Assembly (NCBI GenBank): GCA_018817405.1
Contig: JAHITZ010000044.1
Span: forward strand, 1-35,647
Length of the DNA: 35,647 nt
Source: Nanobdellota archaeon
Lineage (GTDB): Archaea; Nanobdellota; Nanobdellia; Pacearchaeales; GW2011-AR1
Direction: 5' to 3'
Position numbers and translations under genes: made by a program. The notes beneath the pieces were generated by a model. That model saw only the letters and a list, made by a program, of their open reading frames with translations, searched no databases and was not told the origin of the DNA. Shown here one piece after another: positions 16,156 to 34,940 of this stretch; within the stretch, counting starts at the first letter, position 1, and every line of letters begins with the position of its first letter.

Positions 16156-16305
16156 TTATTTCTTCCCCTTCACAGCACCATCATAACCATCTTTCGTCAA
16201 CCCATACCCCGGACATCTCTCAACATCCTCTTCTGACGGAAATATGAATCGCCTTTTTATAGCAAATTCCTCCGTAAAGGCAGGAGTTACAAAAGACTTT
16301 ATCAC
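16156..16305 (-). CDS. Very small hypothetical protein with GTG start
   Basis: I place the start at a GTG whose last two bases begin the upstream gene's stop (GTGA overlap at 16302-16305), a classic translational-coupling junction. That gives 49 residues: MIKSFVTPAFTEEF, then FPSEEDVERC and a basic Lys-rich end. The frame is open further upstream to a TTG at 16353, which would overlap the preceding gene by 52 bases and is less likely. No family is recognised. It may be a fragment of a longer ancestral protein. Confidence 0.5.
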   Translation of the reverse strand: MIKSFVTPAFTEEFAIKRRFIFPSEEDVERCPGYGLTKDGYDGAVKGKK

Positions 16306-25661: not shown

Positions 25662-26351
25662 ATGGACCCAAAAATAGATCAAAATTTTCAAAGCGATCTT
25701 CTATCTAGATTTATTGTTGAGTTTGGCCTATTGAAAGATTTTAAGAGGGATCCAGCAAAGGCCCATAGGAAATTAATAAAGTTATTGAAGAAAAAAGATT
25801 TTCAAATCAAAATGGTAGTGTATAGAGATGTTAAGAAGGAGATACTTTTTGTTAAGGAATTAATAAAAAATAAACGGTTCGGTAAAAGTGAGTATTTTTG
25901 GGAAATGATTTTGATATACTTAGTTTCAGGCATTGAAAGGGTCGTAAATGTAAAGCTATCTGCTGAGCTGGGAATCAGAGGCATTGATTTAAAGGTGATT
26001 AATGAAATTATTCTCAGAAAACTATCTGTTGAAGATAAATTAACTTAGTTTTCAGAGCTATTGGCTTGCAAAAATATAATGTCTGAATTGTTTAGTTGGC
26101 CAAAGATGAAGCGTTTTATCAGGCTCAGGGACACAGCAATCCATGCCAAACCTCAGATAGCAAAAGAAACCCAAGAAACCCAAGAAATAAACTCAGTTAA
26201 GATTAAGGAATTAATAAAAATAATTGAAGATATTCTCAATCTTCTAGAAAAAGATAAATTATCTAGTAAAGAAATGAAATCAAAGAAGCAAAACTTTGCT
26301 GAAGCAAAAAAACTTACAAAAAAGTACATTTCTAACTTAGATAAAAGTTAA
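25662..26351 (+). pseudogene. HEPN-like gene interrupted by one in-frame TAG
   Basis: The first part (128 residues to TAG at 26046-26048) is helical: FWEMILIYLVSGIERVVNVK, then IILRKLSVEDKLT. Without any change of frame it continues as FSELLACKNIMSELF and FIRLRDTAIHAKP to a TAA at 26351. RDTAIH fits the Rx4H signature of HEPN nucleases, and the long helix before it matches the HEPN four-helix layout. The catalytic part therefore lies after the TAG, so the gene is either broken or needs readthrough. The downstream part could restart at the ATG at 26079. TTTAATT lies 27 nt before the first ATG. No nucleotidyltransferase partner gene is adjacent. The HEPN assignment is from motif and helix pattern only. 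Confidence 0.55.
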
Positions 26352-26425
26352 AACTTCGCATAAGATACCTTAACCGCCCTTAAAAATTAAGGTGAGAAGT
26401 TCGCTTTAATCGAGTAACAAATACA

Positions 26426-26743
26426 TTAAGAGGCTACGGAATCCCAAACATGCTGAGCATTTTGCCTGTCAAGTCTTTGATGATATTCCTGCCCTGCAGC
26501 CGTTGGCGTGTAGGTGCCACTTGGTAATCTTTCGAGATGCCCTCTATCAACAAGGCCTCTTAAAAAAGTTCTAGCATCTGTTGATGTGGGCCAACTTCTT
26601 TGCCTCCATCTTCTTCGAACCCAACTCCTGGTGTCAGCAGGATCTTTAAGTTGCATTCTAGTACGATGTGCTGTTAAGAATTGCTCTGCTGTTCTAAGCC
26701 CATGCTGCAAACAGCCATACGCTCCTAATTCTCTAAATTTCAT
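26426..26743 (-). CDS. Small winged-helix-like protein
   Basis: This protein has 105 residues from the ATG at 26743, chosen because CTTTAAAAGG lies 28 nt upstream; a TTG seven codons earlier is less likely. The C-terminal half has a winged-helix look: TSTDARTFLRGLVDRGHLER, LPSGTYTPTAAGQEYHQRL. The N-terminal half is Arg-rich (WVRRRWRQRSW), so nucleic-acid binding is plausible. The codon and residue use (Arg, Gly, Trp) is unlike the Lys-rich neighbours, which may mean acquisition from elsewhere. It converges with the HEPN-like gene across a 74-bp gap containing nested inverted repeats (CCTTAA/TTAAGG). Confidence 0.55.
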   Translation of the reverse strand: MKFRELGAYGCLQHGLRTAEQFLTAHRTRMQLKDPADTRSWVRRRWRQRSWPTSTDARTFLRGLVDRGHLERLPSGTYTPTAAGQEYHQRLDRQNAQHVWDSVAS

Positions 26744-26793
26744 AGAATTACTCGAAATCAAACCCTTTTAAAGTTTTCGCCTGTTATTTCTAG

Positions 26794-27456
26794 CTAAAGA
26801 TACTCAATATCTGCACTTTCCTTAAGACTATTAACAAAGTCACTAAACTCTTGTTGCTGTTTTTGTTGTGCCAAAGCAAGTTTCAATTGCCCAGCTATGT
26901 TTTCATAAGGCATAACAACCGCTCCTGTGAATAAAACATCTTTTTTAGCATCATAATAAGCTCTTGCTTCTTCATCGCTAACTTCAATATCTGAAGTCAC
27001 GTCTTTTATAACGCGTTCAATAATGACCAAATCTTTATAATTTTCAAGAGATTTTTCATAACTTTCCCCTTTAGAAGTAATATCTCCCTTTACTTTTTCT
27101 AGAGTTAGGCCTTGCTTTGCAATAACTTGTTCTAAATGTTGTTCAGCTTCTTCATCAGTTACAGAAATACCTCTGCGTTGTGCTTCCTGTAAAACAAGGA
27201 CATCAGAAACCGCCCTTTCAAGCGCAGCATCTTCACCCACTTGTTTTTTAGTTTGTGCTTCGAGCATTGCCTTTACCTGTTGGACATCGCCCTGAAGGAA
27301 ATATTCATCATTAACAACAACCACAACATCTTCGATAATCTCTTTTTGCTTTTCAACACCCTAAAAACCAAAGAAAAGAACAAAAGCAAAAACAACTACG
27401 ACAAAAAACCCGACAGCAACATTCTCTCTATTTTTGATAGATTTCTTCTTTTTCAT
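26794..27456 (-). pseudogene. SurA-N-like chaperone gene interrupted by one in-frame TAG
   Basis: From an ATG at 27456 the frame encodes a basic start and a membrane anchor (ENVAVGFFVVVVFAFVLFFG), then meets TAG at 27361-27363. The same frame continues as GVEKQKEIIEDVVVVVNDEY and a 180-residue helical domain of SurA N-terminal type (VLVLQEAQRRGISVTDEEAE, YEKSLENYKDLVIIERVIKD). It ends with a second TAG after ADIEYL. Such proteins are membrane-anchored, outward-facing chaperones; no parvulin isomerase domain is present. The TAG sits at codon 32, exactly at the end of the anchor, so without readthrough only the anchor is made, unless translation restarts internally. Confidence 0.65.
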
Positions 27457-27787
27457 AACAAGAGTTCAACGAGAAATATTCTATCTAATTGTTTGTGCTT
27501 TGTCAAACATTTTATTTCTTCAAAATCTTAACAATGAGTTTGATTACAAACACAAAAAAAGCTAAAACAAACGTGACAATAACCTTTTCATTACATTAAC
27601 GGAAAGGATACATCGGTTTTGAAACCGGGTGAGGAATTGTGTCCTCAAAATTTAGTTGATAATTAATGAATCTAAGACACCAAAAATTCCCAATAATTAA
27701 TGAATCTTTTCTTTGTGGATTTTGTGTGTCTGTTAACATTTTTGTTTTAGTTCCTGATACCTCGCCATTTAGGAGTGGTTGTTCATT
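27457..27787. other. Gene-free stretch with palindromes and a 15-bp direct repeat
   Basis: No reading frame looks real here. CGGTTT-TG-AAACCG (27614-27627) and GAGGA/TCCTC (27631-27646) are adjacent dyads. ATAATTAATGAATCT occurs at 27659-27673 and again at 27693-27707. It may hold a small RNA or the terminator of the YbjQ operon, which ends at 27788. Confidence 0.5.
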
Positions 27788-28111
27788 TCACCCCAACTTC
27801 ACAGCAGTCCCGTAAGCTAAAATCTCTGCCGCACCGCCGACAACCATTGAAGTCATGAATCTCATCCCAATTACAGCATCTGCGCCAAGTCCAATTGCTT
27901 CATTTACCATCCGATTGTACGACTCCTCTCTCGCTTGAACCAACAAATTAGTGTAAGACTTTATCTCACCCCCAACAATATTTTTAAAACCCGCAGCAAT
28001 ATCTCTCCCGATGTTCTTAGCCCGAACAGTGTTGCCCTTAACAACTCCCAAGATTTTCACAACTTTTTTCCCAGGAATTGTTTCAACAGTTGTAACAAGC
28101 AAATTGTCCAT
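27788..28111 (-). CDS. YbjQ/UPF0145 family protein
   Basis: This 107-residue cytoplasmic protein matches the YbjQ/UPF0145 fold, often described as a putative heavy-metal-binding domain. It has VTTVETIPGKKVVKILGVVK, then GNTVRAKNIGRDIAAGFKNI, and the conserved AIGLGADAVIGMRFMTS followed by ILAYGTAVKL. Length is typical (about 105 residues). Members assemble as pentamers; the physiological role is unknown. It follows a small membrane-protein gene by 24 bp on the same strand, so it may be tethered at the membrane through that partner, an inference from order only. Confidence 0.9.
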   Translation of the reverse strand: MDNLLVTTVETIPGKKVVKILGVVKGNTVRAKNIGRDIAAGFKNIVGGEIKSYTNLLVQAREESYNRMVNEAIGLGADAVIGMRFMTSMVVGGAAEILAYGTAVKLG

Positions 28112-28135
28112 TTTAATTACTACTTTCCCCTCTTT

Positions 28136-28336
28136 TTATTTCTTTGCTTTTTGTTTTATAGGCTCAACAAATTCTTGCTGTTTTAGTGTTGCCAATATGA
28201 CAATTCCAATAAGCAAGAGAACAAAACCATAAATAAGCAAGAATTTCACAGAAAAAAAAGCAACTACAATTAAAACCAAACCCACAATCATCAAAATAGT
28301 CCCAGAGGCAACAGCAAAACCATCAATTTTTTCCAT
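28136..28336 (-). CDS. Small two-helix membrane protein
   Basis: This 66-residue protein has two membrane segments (ASGTILMIVGLVLIVVAFFS and FLLIYGFVLLLIGIVILATL) and a charged C-terminus (PIKQKAKK) facing the cytoplasm. No named family is recognised. It lies just upstream of the YbjQ-family gene, with which it probably forms an operon. The 28337-28525 gap before it contains no gene. Confidence 0.65.
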   Translation of the reverse strand: MEKIDGFAVASGTILMIVGLVLIVVAFFSVKFLLIYGFVLLLIGIVILATLKQQEFVEPIKQKAKK

Positions 28337-28525
28337 TTCAAATAAACAAACAACAGACTAATAAATCTATCTTTTTAGTTAATTCAACGTAAATCAAACA
28401 GCGCGATACAACCACAAAAACTACCGCGCAAAAGAAGAGATTTGCTTAGCAAGGGCAGTCCTTCCAAATATTATCTACTTGTTTATTGCAAACAACCACA
28501 CAAAAATACTCTACCCACTAAAGAT

Positions 28526-30538
28526 TTAATAAAACTTGCCCTTGATTTTTTTCTTTTTTCCTTTGTTCTTTCCTAACACAAACCAAAGAACAACCACCAC
28601 AATTACAATTATCACTATAACCACCATCCAAACCCTTGCGTTACTAGAAGAAAGTTGTGGTCCAGTTTCTTCCTCTGCTAGTTGCGCTACTTCCTCACCT
28701 TCTTGTTCTGTCTCTGGTTCTGGTTGTGCCCCAGTCACAGCTTCATATATTGATTTAATTGTTATGTCTGCTTTGTTGTTTGTGATAGAATTAAGTGTAA
28801 CAACAAGGTCATAGAAACCATCATCTGTAACCTCAAACTTTTTGCTTTCTCCAATCTTAAGCGTAGCTTCTTGGGGGGTGCTTGTAACTTCAACAGTAGC
28901 ACTATCAGCACCCAAACTAGTAATTCCAACATAATGGGTCTCTGCCCTTTCTCCTGTCCCTCCAGACACACTTAACTTAACTCTATGTTGTTTAGCCAAT
29001 GTTCTAGTTACACCTTCTTCTTTGTTACTTAAAACTTCATCAGCTTCATTATACGTCGCACTCCATGTTGTTCCTCCGCCACCACTACCTCCTCCGCCAC
29101 CACTACTTCCGCCACCACAGGCCTCAGTAGAATATGCAGTGCTCGCGCTGCTCCCAGTATTTCCAGCATTATCTGTACAACTTACAATAAAGTTATAAGA
29201 TGTACCGCACGATAAACCTGTAACAGTAAGTGTCTGGGTCCCGCTATTAGGAGTCATACCCGTTACTGTTACAAACTCAGCACTAAATCCATCAACACCA
29301 CAAGCGCTAGCTACGCGACTTCCGCCCTCTGTAATGGCAGAAGTCATAACTATTTGAGTCTGAGTAGAACTACTAGATCTTGCCAAGGTTAAAGCTGGAT
29401 CAGTAGTATCCAACACAAGTGCCCTAGTAGCAGTGGTAATTCTGGCGTTGGTATAATCAGTAACAGTTAGATTATATGTATAATTAGATTCAGTCAAAGA
29501 AGTCCAATTCATCCAAGTTCTATACAAGTAAGTCTTATTAAAAACTGTTTCATTAAGTTTGGCTGTTTGATTATGCAATGTAAATGTTATATTAACAGCA
29601 CTGCTATTTTGTGTAAAACTCATATTAGCATAAATCCAATCTCTAGAAAAGTTAGTTCCATCATTTTCACTTGAAGTTCCATAAGAAAGCACAGGCAGGG
29701 TGTTATTAACAATAATTGTAACAGAACTCGTAATATTCAAATTGTTATAAGTATCATTTGCCCAAACAGTAATGTTATGAACACCATCTGTGAGCTCTCC
29801 AGTATCAAAGGTAATATACCAGTCATTCCCAATATTAGTCGCCGCTATTGTGAAATTCTGATGAACTCCACCAGTACCCACCCCGGTGGCGTTAGTTATA
29901 TTAAAGTGGACAGCACTCATAGCACCATTGTCTGTAATAGTTGCATTTAGAGTAATGGTCCCAGAAACATTTGACCAAGGACTAGGCACATTAATTGTTG
30001 TAAGATTAGGAGTAGTTGTGTCGTTAACCACAACAGAGATATTTGCCCATCGTGTTCCTGTACCATTATAAGTTGTCTCGACAGTAATATTATACCAGCC
30101 AGGGTGCTGAACAGTCGCATTAAACCAGAAGTTCTTTAGCGTTCCAGCAGCAGACCCATTGAAAAGCATACTCGAGGCATTTTCCCAAACTAAACTTATA
30201 TTGCCTGTACTTGTAAATGTATAATTGCCAACACCCAAACTTGTACCATTGTGAAACAAAGACCCAGGCCTAAAAACAAAACCAGTTGGCAAAGTGATAT
30301 TAACTTTTGTTATATTTGATTCGTAGGTATTATCGGAATTATTAATTGTTATATTATATGTGTATCCGATGTCTTCTAAGACTGGCCCATATAAAGAAGT
30401 ATTATATCCATCAGAAGTTACTACATGGGCTGCAAAACCAAACGAGATATAAAACACAACGGCTAATAATCCCAACACAATAAAACTTTTCAATGCCAAT
30501 TTTGCTTGCTTATTCATTGTCACACTCTTTTTATACAT
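28526..30538 (-). CDS. Large surface (S-layer-like) glycoprotein with C-terminal membrane anchor
   Basis: This protein has 670 residues. A signal peptide (FIVLGLLAVVFYISFGFAAH) is followed by about 360 residues packed with N-glycosylation sequons (NIT, NYT, NGT, NDT), in beta-sandwich repeats typical of archaeal surface proteins. A fibronectin-III-like module (about 390-475, ending in CTDNAGNTGSS) precedes a Gly/Ser hinge. A second beta domain with KIGESKKFEVTDDGFYDLVV follows, then an acidic Glu/Gln stalk, one membrane helix (VWMVVIVIIVIVVVVLWFVL) and a Lys-rich cytoplasmic end. It would be anchored in the membrane and face outward, perhaps in the S-layer or in host contact. Starts at 30538 and 30517 each have a TATA about 28 nt upstream. 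Confidence 0.85.
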   Translation of the reverse strand: MYKKSVTMNKQAKLALKSFIVLGLLAVVFYISFGFAAHVVTSDGYNTSLYGPVLEDIGYTYNITINNSDNTYESNITKVNITLPTGFVFRPGSLFHNGTSLGVGNYTFTSTGNISLVWENASSMLFNGSAAGTLKNFWFNATVQHPGWYNITVETTYNGTGTRWANISVVVNDTTTPNLTTINVPSPWSNVSGTITLNATITDNGAMSAVHFNITNATGVGTGGVHQNFTIAATNIGNDWYITFDTGELTDGVHNITVWANDTYNNLNITSSVTIIVNNTLPVLSYGTSSENDGTNFSRDWIYANMSFTQNSSAVNITFTLHNQTAKLNETVFNKTYLYRTWMNWTSLTESNYTYNLTVTDYTNARITTATRALVLDTTDPALTLARSSSSTQTQIVMTSAITEGGSRVASACGVDGFSAEFVTVTGMTPNSGTQTLTVTGLSCGTSYNFIVSCTDNAGNTGSSASTAYSTEACGGGSSGGGGGSGGGGTTWSATYNEADEVLSNKEEGVTRTLAKQHRVKLSVSGGTGERAETHYVGITSLGADSATVEVTSTPQEATLKIGESKKFEVTDDGFYDLVVTLNSITNNKADITIKSIYEAVTGAQPEPETEQEGEEVAQLAEEETGPQLSSSNARVWMVVIVIIVIVVVVLWFVLGKNKGKKKKIKGKFY

Positions 30539-30558
30539 ATATAAATTAGAAGAAAGTC

Positions 30559-30569
30559 TTTATAAATCT
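30559..30569. promoter_or_regulatory. Palindromic TATA box shared by tRNA-Thr and the surface-protein gene
   Basis: The TTTATAAA core reads the same on both strands. It lies 22-31 nt before the tRNA start (30590) and a similar distance before the ATG of the divergent surface-protein gene (30538), so one TATA box may serve both directions. Confidence 0.5.
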
Positions 30570-30589
30570 TTCTTCACCTATTCTTTAGA

Positions 30590-30714
30590 GCCTCTATAGC
30601 TCAGTTGGCTAGAGCGCCACTCTCGTAGATTTAAAATTACAAGTTTGAAGATTCTGAAATAGCGTCGACAATCGAGATAAGTGGAGGTCCCGGGTTCAAG
30701 TCCCGGTAGGGGCT
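30590..30714 (+). tRNA. tRNA-Thr (anticodon CGU) with a 51-nt intron
   Basis: The acceptor arms GCCTCTA and TAGGGGC pair, with U73 as discriminator as is usual for archaeal tRNA-Thr. The D arm is GCTC/GAGC, the anticodon stem is CCACT/AGTGG and the T arm is CCGGG-TTCAAGT-CCCGG. The anticodon CGT is at 30624-30626. An intron at 30628-30678 lies after position 37. Its ends form a bulge-helix-bulge (exon CTCG with intron CGAG, and 3-nt bulges TAG and ATA) for the archaeal splicing endonuclease. The mature tRNA is 74 nt; CCA is not encoded. It decodes ACG and sits just before argS. Confidence 0.92.
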
Positions 30715-30752
30715 TTACATAAATTTATTAATCATCTTAACAATTCTTTATC

Positions 30753-32435
30753 ATGAAGAAAGATGTTATAAAAACAATTAAAAAATATATGGGGCTAACG
30801 ACAAACGAAATAGAAAACTTAATTGAAATTCCTCCTTCTCCAGAATTAGGAGATTTTGCATTTCCTTGTTTTGCCGTCGGTAAAAAACTAAAGAAAAATC
30901 CTGCAGAAATTGCGCAAGACATAACTAAAAAAATAAAGTCAAAAGAATTTGAAAAAGTAGAAGCTAAAGGACCATATGTTAATTTTTTTGTTGATAAAAC
31001 AAAGTTAGCAAAAAAAACCCTTGAAACAATAAAAATGCAAAAAGAAAAATATGGTTCTAAAAAACTAGGAAACGAAAAGATAATGGTTGAATTCTCTCAA
31101 CCAAACACACATAAAGCATTCCACGTCGGTCACATTAGAGGAACTTCTTTAGGAGAAAGCATATCAAGAATTTTAGAATTTACAGGAAATAAAGTTATTA
31201 GGGCAAACTACTCTGGAGACACTGGAATGCACATTGCAAAATGGCTCTGGTCTTACCAAAAGTTTCACGCAAAAGAAAAATTAAAAGAAGAAGAATCCTG
31301 GATTGCTTCAATCTATGTGGAAGCCATTAAAAAACTTGAGCAAACCCCAGAATCCCAAGAAGAAGTAGAAGAAATAAATAGAAAATTAGAATCAGGAGAA
31401 GAGAAGAAACTAAATTATCTTTGGAAGAAAACAAGACAATCGTCAATCAATGCTTGGAAAAAAATTTACAATGAGCTAAACACGAAATTCAGCATCCAAT
31501 ATTTTGAATCAGAATTAGAAAAACCAGCTAAAGCCTTTGTGAAATCTCTCGTGAAAAAAAAGATTGCAAAGATCTCGGAAGGGGCGACGATAATTAATTT
31601 TGAAGACCAGAATCAAGCAAACCTTGGAGTTTTTCTTTTACTAAGAAAAGATGGCACCGTACTTTACGGAGGAAAAGACCTGGGTTTAGCAGAAAAAAAA
31701 TTTAAAGAATTCAAACTCAATAAGTCCTATTATATAATAGGACGAGAACAAGAGCTCTACATCCATCAAGTTTTCAAGACTCTTGAGTTAGCAAAATCAA
31801 AAGCTGCCGGAAAAAGTTTCTATATTCCTCTGTCAGAAGTGAGACTTCCAACCGGAAAAATGTCCTCACGAACCGGCGACAATGTTCTTTATTCAAATTT
31901 TAAAAAAGAATTAATCGATTATGCTAAAGAAGAGATAAAAAAGAGGCACAAGATAAACACGAAAGAATTAGAAAAAAGGTCTTTACTAATTGCCATAGCC
32001 TCGATGAAATATGCAATGCTTAGGCAAGACTTAAACAAAACAATTGTCTTTAACAAAAAAGAGTCCATCAGTTTCGAAGGTAACACAGGCCCGTACCTAT
32101 TATATACTTATGCGCGGGCTAAAAGCATCTTAAGAAAAGCAAAATACAAACAGAAGAAGTTTAAAATTAAAGACTTAAACGATTCAGAGAAATCTCTTGT
32201 TTTACAATTAACTAAATTCCCAGAAATTATAGAAAAAGCTTACAAAACTCTCTCTCCAAGTCTGATTGCAAACTACGCTCACCAATTAGCTCAGACATTT
32301 AATGAGTTTTATCATAAAAACAAAGTAATTGGTTCTAAAGAAGAATCATTTAGACTTGTGCTTGTAGATGCATCTTCCCAAGTGCTCAAAAACGCCCTGT
32401 ACCTTTTGGGCATAGAAACTTTAGAGAGAATGTGA
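30753..32435 (+). CDS. argS: Arginyl-tRNA synthetase
   Basis: This 560-residue class I synthetase charges tRNA-Arg with arginine. The N-terminal tRNA-binding domain (about 1-100) includes the PSPELGDFAFPCFAVGKKLK region. The catalytic core has the HIGH motif as HVGH (124-127, in PNTHKAFHVGHIRG), followed by YSGDTGMHIAKW, and the KMSK motif appears as KMSSRTGD (about 369-376). The C-terminal anticodon-binding helix bundle ends with ALYLLGIETLERM, the usual ArgS ending. Its length is on the short side for ArgS but all domains are present. AATTTATTAAT lies about 30 nt before the ATG. The tRNA-Thr gene lies 38 bp upstream and may be transcribed separately. Confidence 0.96.
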   Translation: MKKDVIKTIKKYMGLTTNEIENLIEIPPSPELGDFAFPCFAVGKKLKKNPAEIAQDITKKIKSKEFEKVEAKGPYVNFFVDKTKLAKKTLETIKMQKEKYGSKKLGNEKIMVEFSQPNTHKAFHVGHIRGTSLGESISRILEFTGNKVIRANYSGDTGMHIAKWLWSYQKFHAKEKLKEEESWIASIYVEAIKKLEQTPESQEEVEEINRKLESGEEKKLNYLWKKTRQSSINAWKKIYNELNTKFSIQYFESELEKPAKAFVKSLVKKKIAKISEGATIINFEDQNQANLGVFLLLRKDGTVLYGGKDLGLAEKKFKEFKLNKSYYIIGREQELYIHQVFKTLELAKSKAAGKSFYIPLSEVRLPTGKMSSRTGDNVLYSNFKKELIDYAKEEIKKRHKINTKELEKRSLLIAIASMKYAMLRQDLNKTIVFNKKESISFEGNTGPYLLYTYARAKSILRKAKYKQKKFKIKDLNDSEKSLVLQLTKFPEIIEKAYKTLSPSLIANYAHQLAQTFNEFYHKNKVIGSKEESFRLVLVDASSQVLKNALYLLGIETLERM

Positions 32436-32481
32436 ACTTATAACTAAATATTTAAAAAGATAAAATTTATTGATTAATCTC

Positions 32482-32640
32482 ATGAATATAATAAGCATAT
32501 TGCTGGCGAATAGTTTTTTTCTTTTGATAGTCCTATTAGTTTTAATTGCAGTATCCTTTAGAAACGGCCACCCAAAAAAACGAAGCAAGTCCAAGGTAAA
32601 AGACGACTTGAAGAAAATCAAAGAACAGATTTATAATTAG
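32482..32640 (+). CDS. 52-residue single-pass membrane protein
   Basis: An N-terminal membrane helix (ISILLANSFFLLIVLLVLIA) is followed by a strongly basic cytoplasmic tail (NGHPKKRSKSKVKDDLKKIK). TATTTAAAAAG lies about 33 nt before the ATG. No family is recognised, but the layout is common for tiny archaeal membrane proteins. It follows argS by 46 bp and ends with TAG. Confidence 0.55.
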   Translation: MNIISILLANSFFLLIVLLVLIAVSFRNGHPKKRSKSKVKDDLKKIKEQIYN

Positions 32641-32765
32641 CTTCTATTTATTAAACATTTAGTACATTGTAACCTAAACGTCAGTTCCAAAAATTTTCTA
32701 GTATTTTACTAAGTAGTAAAAAATTGTTAGGAAAATCTTATATAGTATTATTCAGTTATTCTAAC

Positions 32766-33389
32766 ATGAAAAAAGGACAATCTAAGAGCATTATAATTCT
32801 TCTTCTTTTAGCTATTATTGTAGTTTTGGTTGTTATTGCATTTAAACCATCCATAACTGGAAATGTGATTAGTGAAGGAAGTGCGAAAAAAGGAGGGATT
32901 GTACTTGTATCACCTTTTTGGGATATTGATTTTGGTAGAGGAATTGATTGTCTAAATGCAAAAGAAGAAGGGAAAAGCTTAGGTAGAATCGGAATTACTT
33001 ATTCTCTTAAAGACCTTTCAGGTTCTGATTATTATTCTTGCAAGTAGATTGTAGATGGAGAGCAAGTTGGATTTGAGCCAATGTTGTTCGATGGAATGCA
33101 AAGAGATTTTTTCCCTTCTCAAGAATTTGATATTTATAAAAATCACAATGTAGAGATTTGTTGCTCTGTTGACTATGGAGAGGGCAAAGAATCACAAGAA
33201 TTTTGCAAGGAAGGTTTACGGGGAGGTTATTGTGGTGGAAACGAATGCCAGTATTTTGTTAAGGATGAAGTAATTTCAATATATTCTTGCCAAACCAAAA
33301 TGGACTTTATTAAACATGTTTCTGTTCTTACTAGTGACTTTGAAGTTAACTCTAATGATGTAAGTGTGATTGGGTGTTTTAATTCTTAA
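32766..33389 (+). pseudogene. Secreted Cys-rich protein gene interrupted by one in-frame TAG
   Basis: The ATG at 32766 is preceded by CTTATATAG at about -29, which favours it over an upstream start at 32724. The protein starts with a membrane anchor (SIIILLLLAIIVVLVVIAF) and SITGNVI, a pattern I associate with exported DPANN proteins. It then has a domain ending in SDYYSCK before a TAG at 33045-33047. The same frame continues as IVDGEQVGFEPMLFDGMQRD and a Cys-rich part (VEICCSVDYGEG, GGYCGGNECQYF) to TAA. About 93 and 113 codons flank the TAG. The Cys on both sides suggest one disulfide-bonded domain. No family is recognised. The 3' end overlaps the convergent winged-helix gene by 11 bases. 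Confidence 0.65.
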
Positions 33390-33949: not shown

Positions 33950-34940
33950 ATAAATAATCGGCAGGAGTGCCGTCGTCAAACTAAACACTCCCACCAAAAT
34001 GACAAGTGAAACAGGATATAAAAAACCAGCGATTGAATGTCTTTATATGTAAGGCAAGTAATTATACAAAACAAGGTTATAGAAAAACAGAAAACAGAGG
34101 GAAGATTCAGAAATACTACTGTAAGAATTGTAGAAAATATTTCACGAATGATGATGGTTTCTACAGGATGAGAAACAACCCACAGAAAATAACTTGTGGC
34201 ATTGACTTATTTTATAGGGGCGTTTCAACTAGGAAAGTCCAAGAGCATTTTCAAACATTCTATCCACATAATTCAAGTCACATGAGCATTTACAGATGGG
34301 TTGTTAAATTCTCTAAGAAGATTAGTAAGTTTACAGATAATCTTAAACTTCAAGTCGGTTCTGAAGTTCAGATTGATGAGATAGAATACAAGAGAAGATT
34401 ACACCATCAAAAAGGAATGAAGGGCGTGGAAGATAATTATTTTATAGATAGCATAGACCCTAAAACAAAATTCATGACAGCTACCAATTTCTCAAATCAA
34501 AGAGAGATTAAGGATTTACAAGTGGTTGCCACAAAGATAAAGGAGAGAACAGGAGAGCAAGTTGAAAAAGTTACAACCGATGGTTTACGTGGCTACCCTA
34601 AAGCGATTAAGAAGGCGTGGGGATACAATAACAAGTTAGGGAGGCATAACGTCTGTCATAAGCAAGTTATCACAAGTAAAGAGGATACGTTTAATTATCC
34701 TATTGAGAGATTGCACAATAACGTAAGGGCAAGAACAAAAACAATGAGGGGCTTTCATGGTAGTTTAGAAAGTGCAAAAGCGATACTGAAAGGTTGGGAG
34801 ATTTACTATAATTTCATTACCAAACATCAAACTATAAAATGTTCTCCTTATGAGTTAGCTTGTACTGATTTGAAGTTGGAAGGAAATAATAAGTGGGTTG
34901 AGTTGATTGGGTTAAGTAGTAGAAAAAACTAAAAGATGTA
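33950..34940 (+). mobile_element. Insertion sequence with DDE transposase (ends not resolved)
   Basis: The element is defined by its transposase. At the left, nested hairpins (CGGCA-GGAG-TGCCG at 33959-33972 and GGAGTG/CACTCC at 33964-33991) lie just before the gene. I could not identify matching terminal inverted repeats or a target-site duplication, so the limits are approximate. Confidence 0.45.
33999..34932 (+). pseudogene. DDE transposase (IS6/IS240-like fold) with a one-base frameshift near its start
   Basis: The main frame encodes a zinc-ribbon half (KIQKYYCKNCRKYFTNDDGF) and a DDE catalytic domain: EVQIDEIEY (first D), EKVTTDGLRGYPKAI (second D) and NYPIERLHNNVRARTKTMRG (E), ending TIKCSPYELA. 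The layout fits IS6/IS240-type or related MULE-like transposases. The ATG at 33999 reads MTSETGYKKPAIECLYM and stops. Ignoring one base near 34047 joins it to CKASNYTKQGYRKT, restoring a CxxC (CLYC) that pairs with the later CKNC to form the zinc ribbon. So either a frameshift mutation or programmed frameshifting is present. A GTG at 34006 would give a protein lacking half the ribbon. Confidence 0.75.

Follow-up and report, generated by a model that had tools for sequence, protein, structure and literature searches.

Three genes lying within 7.7 kb of one archaeal contig are each interrupted by a single in-frame TAG, which raises the question of whether these codons are decoded by a suppressor tRNA, are read through in a context-dependent manner, or mark genes that have recently been broken by nonsense mutation. 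The window analysed (35,647 nucleotides) is contig C7 of a 1.07 Mb, 66-contig, 82%-complete genome whose gene content (DP1/DP2 polymerase, Cdc6, ArgS) is archaeal and whose size fits the DPANN type, to which it is inferred to belong.

The interrupted genes

The single TAG and the continuation of the same frame beyond it, described by the first-pass annotation, were confirmed for all three genes in the sequence and in translation: with the TAG translated as a residue, each frame was open on both sides. The HEPN-like ORF (25662..26351, plus strand, 229 codons) carried its TAG at 26046-26048, after 128 codons; the ORF for a SurA_N-domain protein, membrane-anchored or secreted (26794..27459, minus strand), at 27361-27363; and the ORF for a secreted, Cys-rich protein whose N-terminus has a hydrophobic segment (32724..33389, plus strand) at 33045-33047, after 107 codons. 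In a scan of the window with a codon-usage model trained on the long ORFs of this genome, coding signal flanked all three TAGs on both sides, with a weak margin for the 3' half of the HEPN-like gene. The same scan passed three further stops, all on the minus strand: a TAA at 28138 and a TGA at 27790, which were ordinary gene boundaries on inspection, and a TAA at 16158, flanked by a coding-like stretch on each side (68 and 74 codons), which is possibly another broken gene.

The SurA label held, as the minus-strand gene matched SurA_N in Pfam (2.2e-10) and had homologues in two species of the same genus (G001 and G003; 30-32% identity). The SurA_N_3 match covered residues 10-112 and ran across the TAG, which is near residue 33, just past the hydrophobic N-terminal segment. 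When these sister orthologues were aligned, both were uninterrupted and had sense codons at the site, the internal TAG not being conserved. The gene's own terminator (26794-26796) was also a TAG, placed exactly at the C-terminus of the sister homologues; TAG therefore terminates normally the same gene that it interrupts. For the Cys-rich gene, a weak homologue (22-24% identity) aligned across the TAG. The stop was thus premature with respect to intact homologues in the SurA-like gene and, through this weak homologue, in the Cys-rich gene.

The HEPN label fared less well: the gene matched no HEPN family and no Pfam or NCBIfam model, the sole basis for the name being an RxxxxH motif (RDTAIH) in its 3' part, and no relative was found in 55 related genomes or in collections of genome contigs, viral contigs and plasmids. 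PHROGs and PADLOC searches gave weak matches only. Between the HEPN-like and SurA-like genes there is a short ORF on the minus strand (26426-26761) whose weak match is AbiEi-antitoxin-like, and a transposase with an IS6/IS240-like DDE domain (34006-34932) is located close to the Cys-rich gene.

The three interrupted genes look like accessory genes, and nearby core genes, such as ArgS (30753-32435), were uninterrupted. The downstream halves of the three genes showed no visible degradation, and no flanking nucleotide context common to the three TAG sites was seen by eye.

Stop codons interrupting genes elsewhere in the genome and in a sister species

Interruptions were sought by comparing stretches of this genome that add up to about 876 kb (the sampling took in about 82% of the assembly) with its own paralogues and with sequence from two sister species (about 1.28 Mb), and by a de novo coding scan of its first 685 kb. 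Most of the first tblastn stop counts came from antisense shadow ORFs and pre-start sequence; they were refiltered and the remainder judged by eye, with antisense shadows, pre-start cases and gene-end cases removed by hand. Among the discarded candidates were a TAG in a non-genic repeat (L130:2086) and three TAGs that were gene-end, shadow or pre-start cases (L066:817, L158:7041 and L171:3872).

In the curated set, nine genes of the sampled part of this genome were interrupted by a single stop outside the window, three by TAA, four by TGA and two by TAG. The TAA cases were a gene with one NYN domain across the stop (C24:713), intact in many relatives (up to 76% identity), an AsnC-like wHTH gene (C9:30877) and a second, fragmented NYN copy (C6:37310-37767). 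The TGA cases were an AsnC-type HTH gene (C9:59001), a membrane protein (C10:1834), a gene with GmrSD_N followed by HNH (C23:17520) and a secreted protein (C30:11511), the last two recognised from coding signal and domain order, with no homologue aligned across the stop. The TAG cases were located at C15:2096 and, in a lamin-tail-like surface protein, at C1:993. The sister species G003 added two TAA and two TAG interruptions, and no orthologous stop common to different species was found.

Two of these families were broken more than once. The C15 gene (L131:1949-2761) and its G003 counterpart (L191; G003 C8:8055-8849) are copies of a conserved gene, otherwise 63% identical, that carry one TAG each at different sites; more distant homologues were open or had a TAA. 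NYN-domain (PIN-like RNase) genes were multi-copy (L067:312-851 on C24, the C6 copy above and G003 C12:61316-61840) and stops at differing sites had broken them more than once, with intact copies in many relatives.

The emphasis placed on TAG by the first-pass annotation was not supported outside the window, where TAA and TGA interrupted genes as often as TAG did and no suppressor tRNA accompanied them. With the codon usage of this genome, random nonsense substitutions would be expected to give about 0.44 TAA, 0.31 TAG (29-33%) and 0.25 TGA, and the proportions outside the window were roughly these, as in nonsense pseudogenes. Three TAGs out of three would arise by mutation alone with P ~0.03, which is weak evidence, the pattern having been picked after the fact. 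Fisher's test of the three seed genes against the unfiltered de novo candidate list (P ~0.01) is crude and should not be relied on, as that list includes ordinary gene boundaries. The curated tally for the two genomes was 7 TAG, 5 TAA and 4 TGA with the window included, and 4, 5 and 4 respectively without the three seed cases; a TAG excess is not clear.

Nonsense decay, consensus artefact and readthrough

The three TAGs very probably represent recent nonsense decay in weakly constrained accessory genes, or a broken strain allele that entered the metagenome consensus; of the three options first raised for them, decay was the only one supported. Ordinary gene decay, with no new genetic code, is indicated because TAA- and TGA-broken genes occur in the same genome and no TAG-decoding machinery was found. 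A recent nonsense mutation would have created a premature TAG in each weakly constrained accessory gene of this DPANN-type archaeon, or a strain allele already broken may have been taken into the consensus. Translation would then stop at the TAG, presumably giving truncated products in the cell, and re-initiation may be possible at downstream GTG or TTG codons. As the downstream halves are not visibly degraded, either the mutations must have happened recently or the breaks must be polymorphic. The oddity that counts against decay is that all three breaks within the 7.7 kb are TAG.

The cases described here resemble prokaryotic nonsense pseudogenes: single in-frame stops, be they TAA, TGA or TAG, fall in secreted, defence-like and regulatory genes of poor conservation that have intact homologues in relatives; nothing substantial set them apart, the local run of three TAGs being the sole oddity.

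An assembly or sequencing artefact, with a TAG in the consensus and a sense codon in most cells, is unlikely. Strain variation and a short-read consensus can yield isolated stops in a fragmented and incomplete assembly such as this one, but isolated substitution errors would not usually place three stops within 8 kb, and interruptions were found genome-wide and in sister genomes.

The TAGs of the C15 gene and the TAAs of the NYN genes, at different sites in this genome and in G003, are the basis for a speculative reading, to which we give little credence, that single, revertible stops repeatedly inactivate fast-evolving accessory genes in this genus, and that slight leaky readthrough may maintain a supply of full-length product, which would make of the stops a slow on/off switch.

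That leaky or context-dependent readthrough yields some full-length product from the three genes is highly improbable. The frames are kept on both sides of the stops, and it has been proposed (PMC7918605) that many bacterial genes carrying in-frame stops undergo readthrough; in that same work, however, most detected events were judged short-lived and likely deleterious. The genes studied here resemble those putative events in that one in-frame stop is flanked by retained coding sequence, but differ in that no orthologous stop was found to be common to different species. The lack of a context shared by the three sites, the sense codons of the SurA-like sisters and the fact that every stop type was affected all argue against the context-dependent readthrough considered by the first-pass annotation.

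TAG termination and the search for TAG-decoding machinery

Decoding of TAG by a suppressor or pyrrolysine tRNA, as in the archaeal pyrrolysine code, is already refuted on the sampled sequence and is given almost no weight, the arguments in its favour (three of three breaks are TAG, and ARAGORN called a tRNA-Pyl(cta) on contig C11) being outweighed by the evidence that follows.

TAG is a working stop codon in this genome. It ended 81 of the 455 ORFs that encode 150 aa or more, and it did so at the right places: among conserved genes, the alignment ended with the sister homologue (no more than 15 aa from the end of the sister protein) for 46/55 genes terminated by TAG, vs. 143/162 for TAA and 84/94 for TGA. 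The aRF1 was intact (NIKS in TASNIKS, YxCxxxF as YRCDQEF, and GGQ), so that a release-factor variant, one of the possibilities to be checked, was not supported; neither depletion of TAG as a terminator nor an altered release factor was seen. The earlier view that a general reassignment of TAG was unlikely was thus borne out by the TAG-ended ORFs, the conserved C-termini and the normal aRF1.

Thirty-three tRNAs were found in the genome (Rfam), none with a CUA anticodon in the sampled sequence. With introns allowed, ARAGORN called a tRNA-Pyl(cta) on C11 and a tRNA-Stop(tta) on C54, and no other CUA or UUA anticodon was detected. Both calls were rejected: the first is an intron-bearing tRNA-Lys(CUU) and the second an intron-bearing tRNA-Lys(UUU), each with its intron at the canonical position 37/38 and a near-identical, intron-free sister counterpart (tRNA-Lys(ctt) and tRNA-Lys(ttt) respectively). 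Once re-spliced, tRNA-Lys(CUU) differed from the sister tRNA-Lys(ctt) by a single internal base of the mature body. In both archaeal tRNA-Lys genes (L032:1500-1623 and L031:1500-1599) the intron had been misplaced by one base by ARAGORN. A tRNA-Thr(CGU) with a 51-base intron (30589-30715) escaped the default tRNA search of the window.

PylS was over the cut-off in none of 56 genomes (this one and 55 relatives); in this genome PylS_Cterm matches were far below the cut-off and PylS_Nterm was absent. Among 14 control genomes one exceeded the PylS_Cterm cut-off, and a PylS_Nterm match was obtained only in Methanosarcina acetivorans. The PylS candidates on C24, C45 and C56 were class II synthetases that cross-match: by sequence, those on C45 and C56 are HisRS and LysRS respectively, and on C24 the PF01409 match was PheRS-like and the TIGR02367 match below the cut-off. 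The amber suppressor option was therefore left with neither a CUA tRNA nor a PylS, and the evidence that there is no suppressor tRNA is strong, if not absolute, given a genome completeness of 82% and an analysis that took in about 82% of the assembly. This genome has the TAG codon and its domain of life in common with archaeal pyrrolysine decoding, whereas the lack of PylS and tRNA(CUA) and the normal termination at TAG set this genome apart.

A false lead for an amber-decoding code in DPANN archaea is thereby removed. A trap also came to light: when introns are allowed, ARAGORN places the splice site of archaeal tRNA-Lys genes one base off and calls them "tRNA-Pyl(cta)" and "tRNA-Stop(tta)", false suppressor tRNAs that a naive search for recoded archaea would collect.
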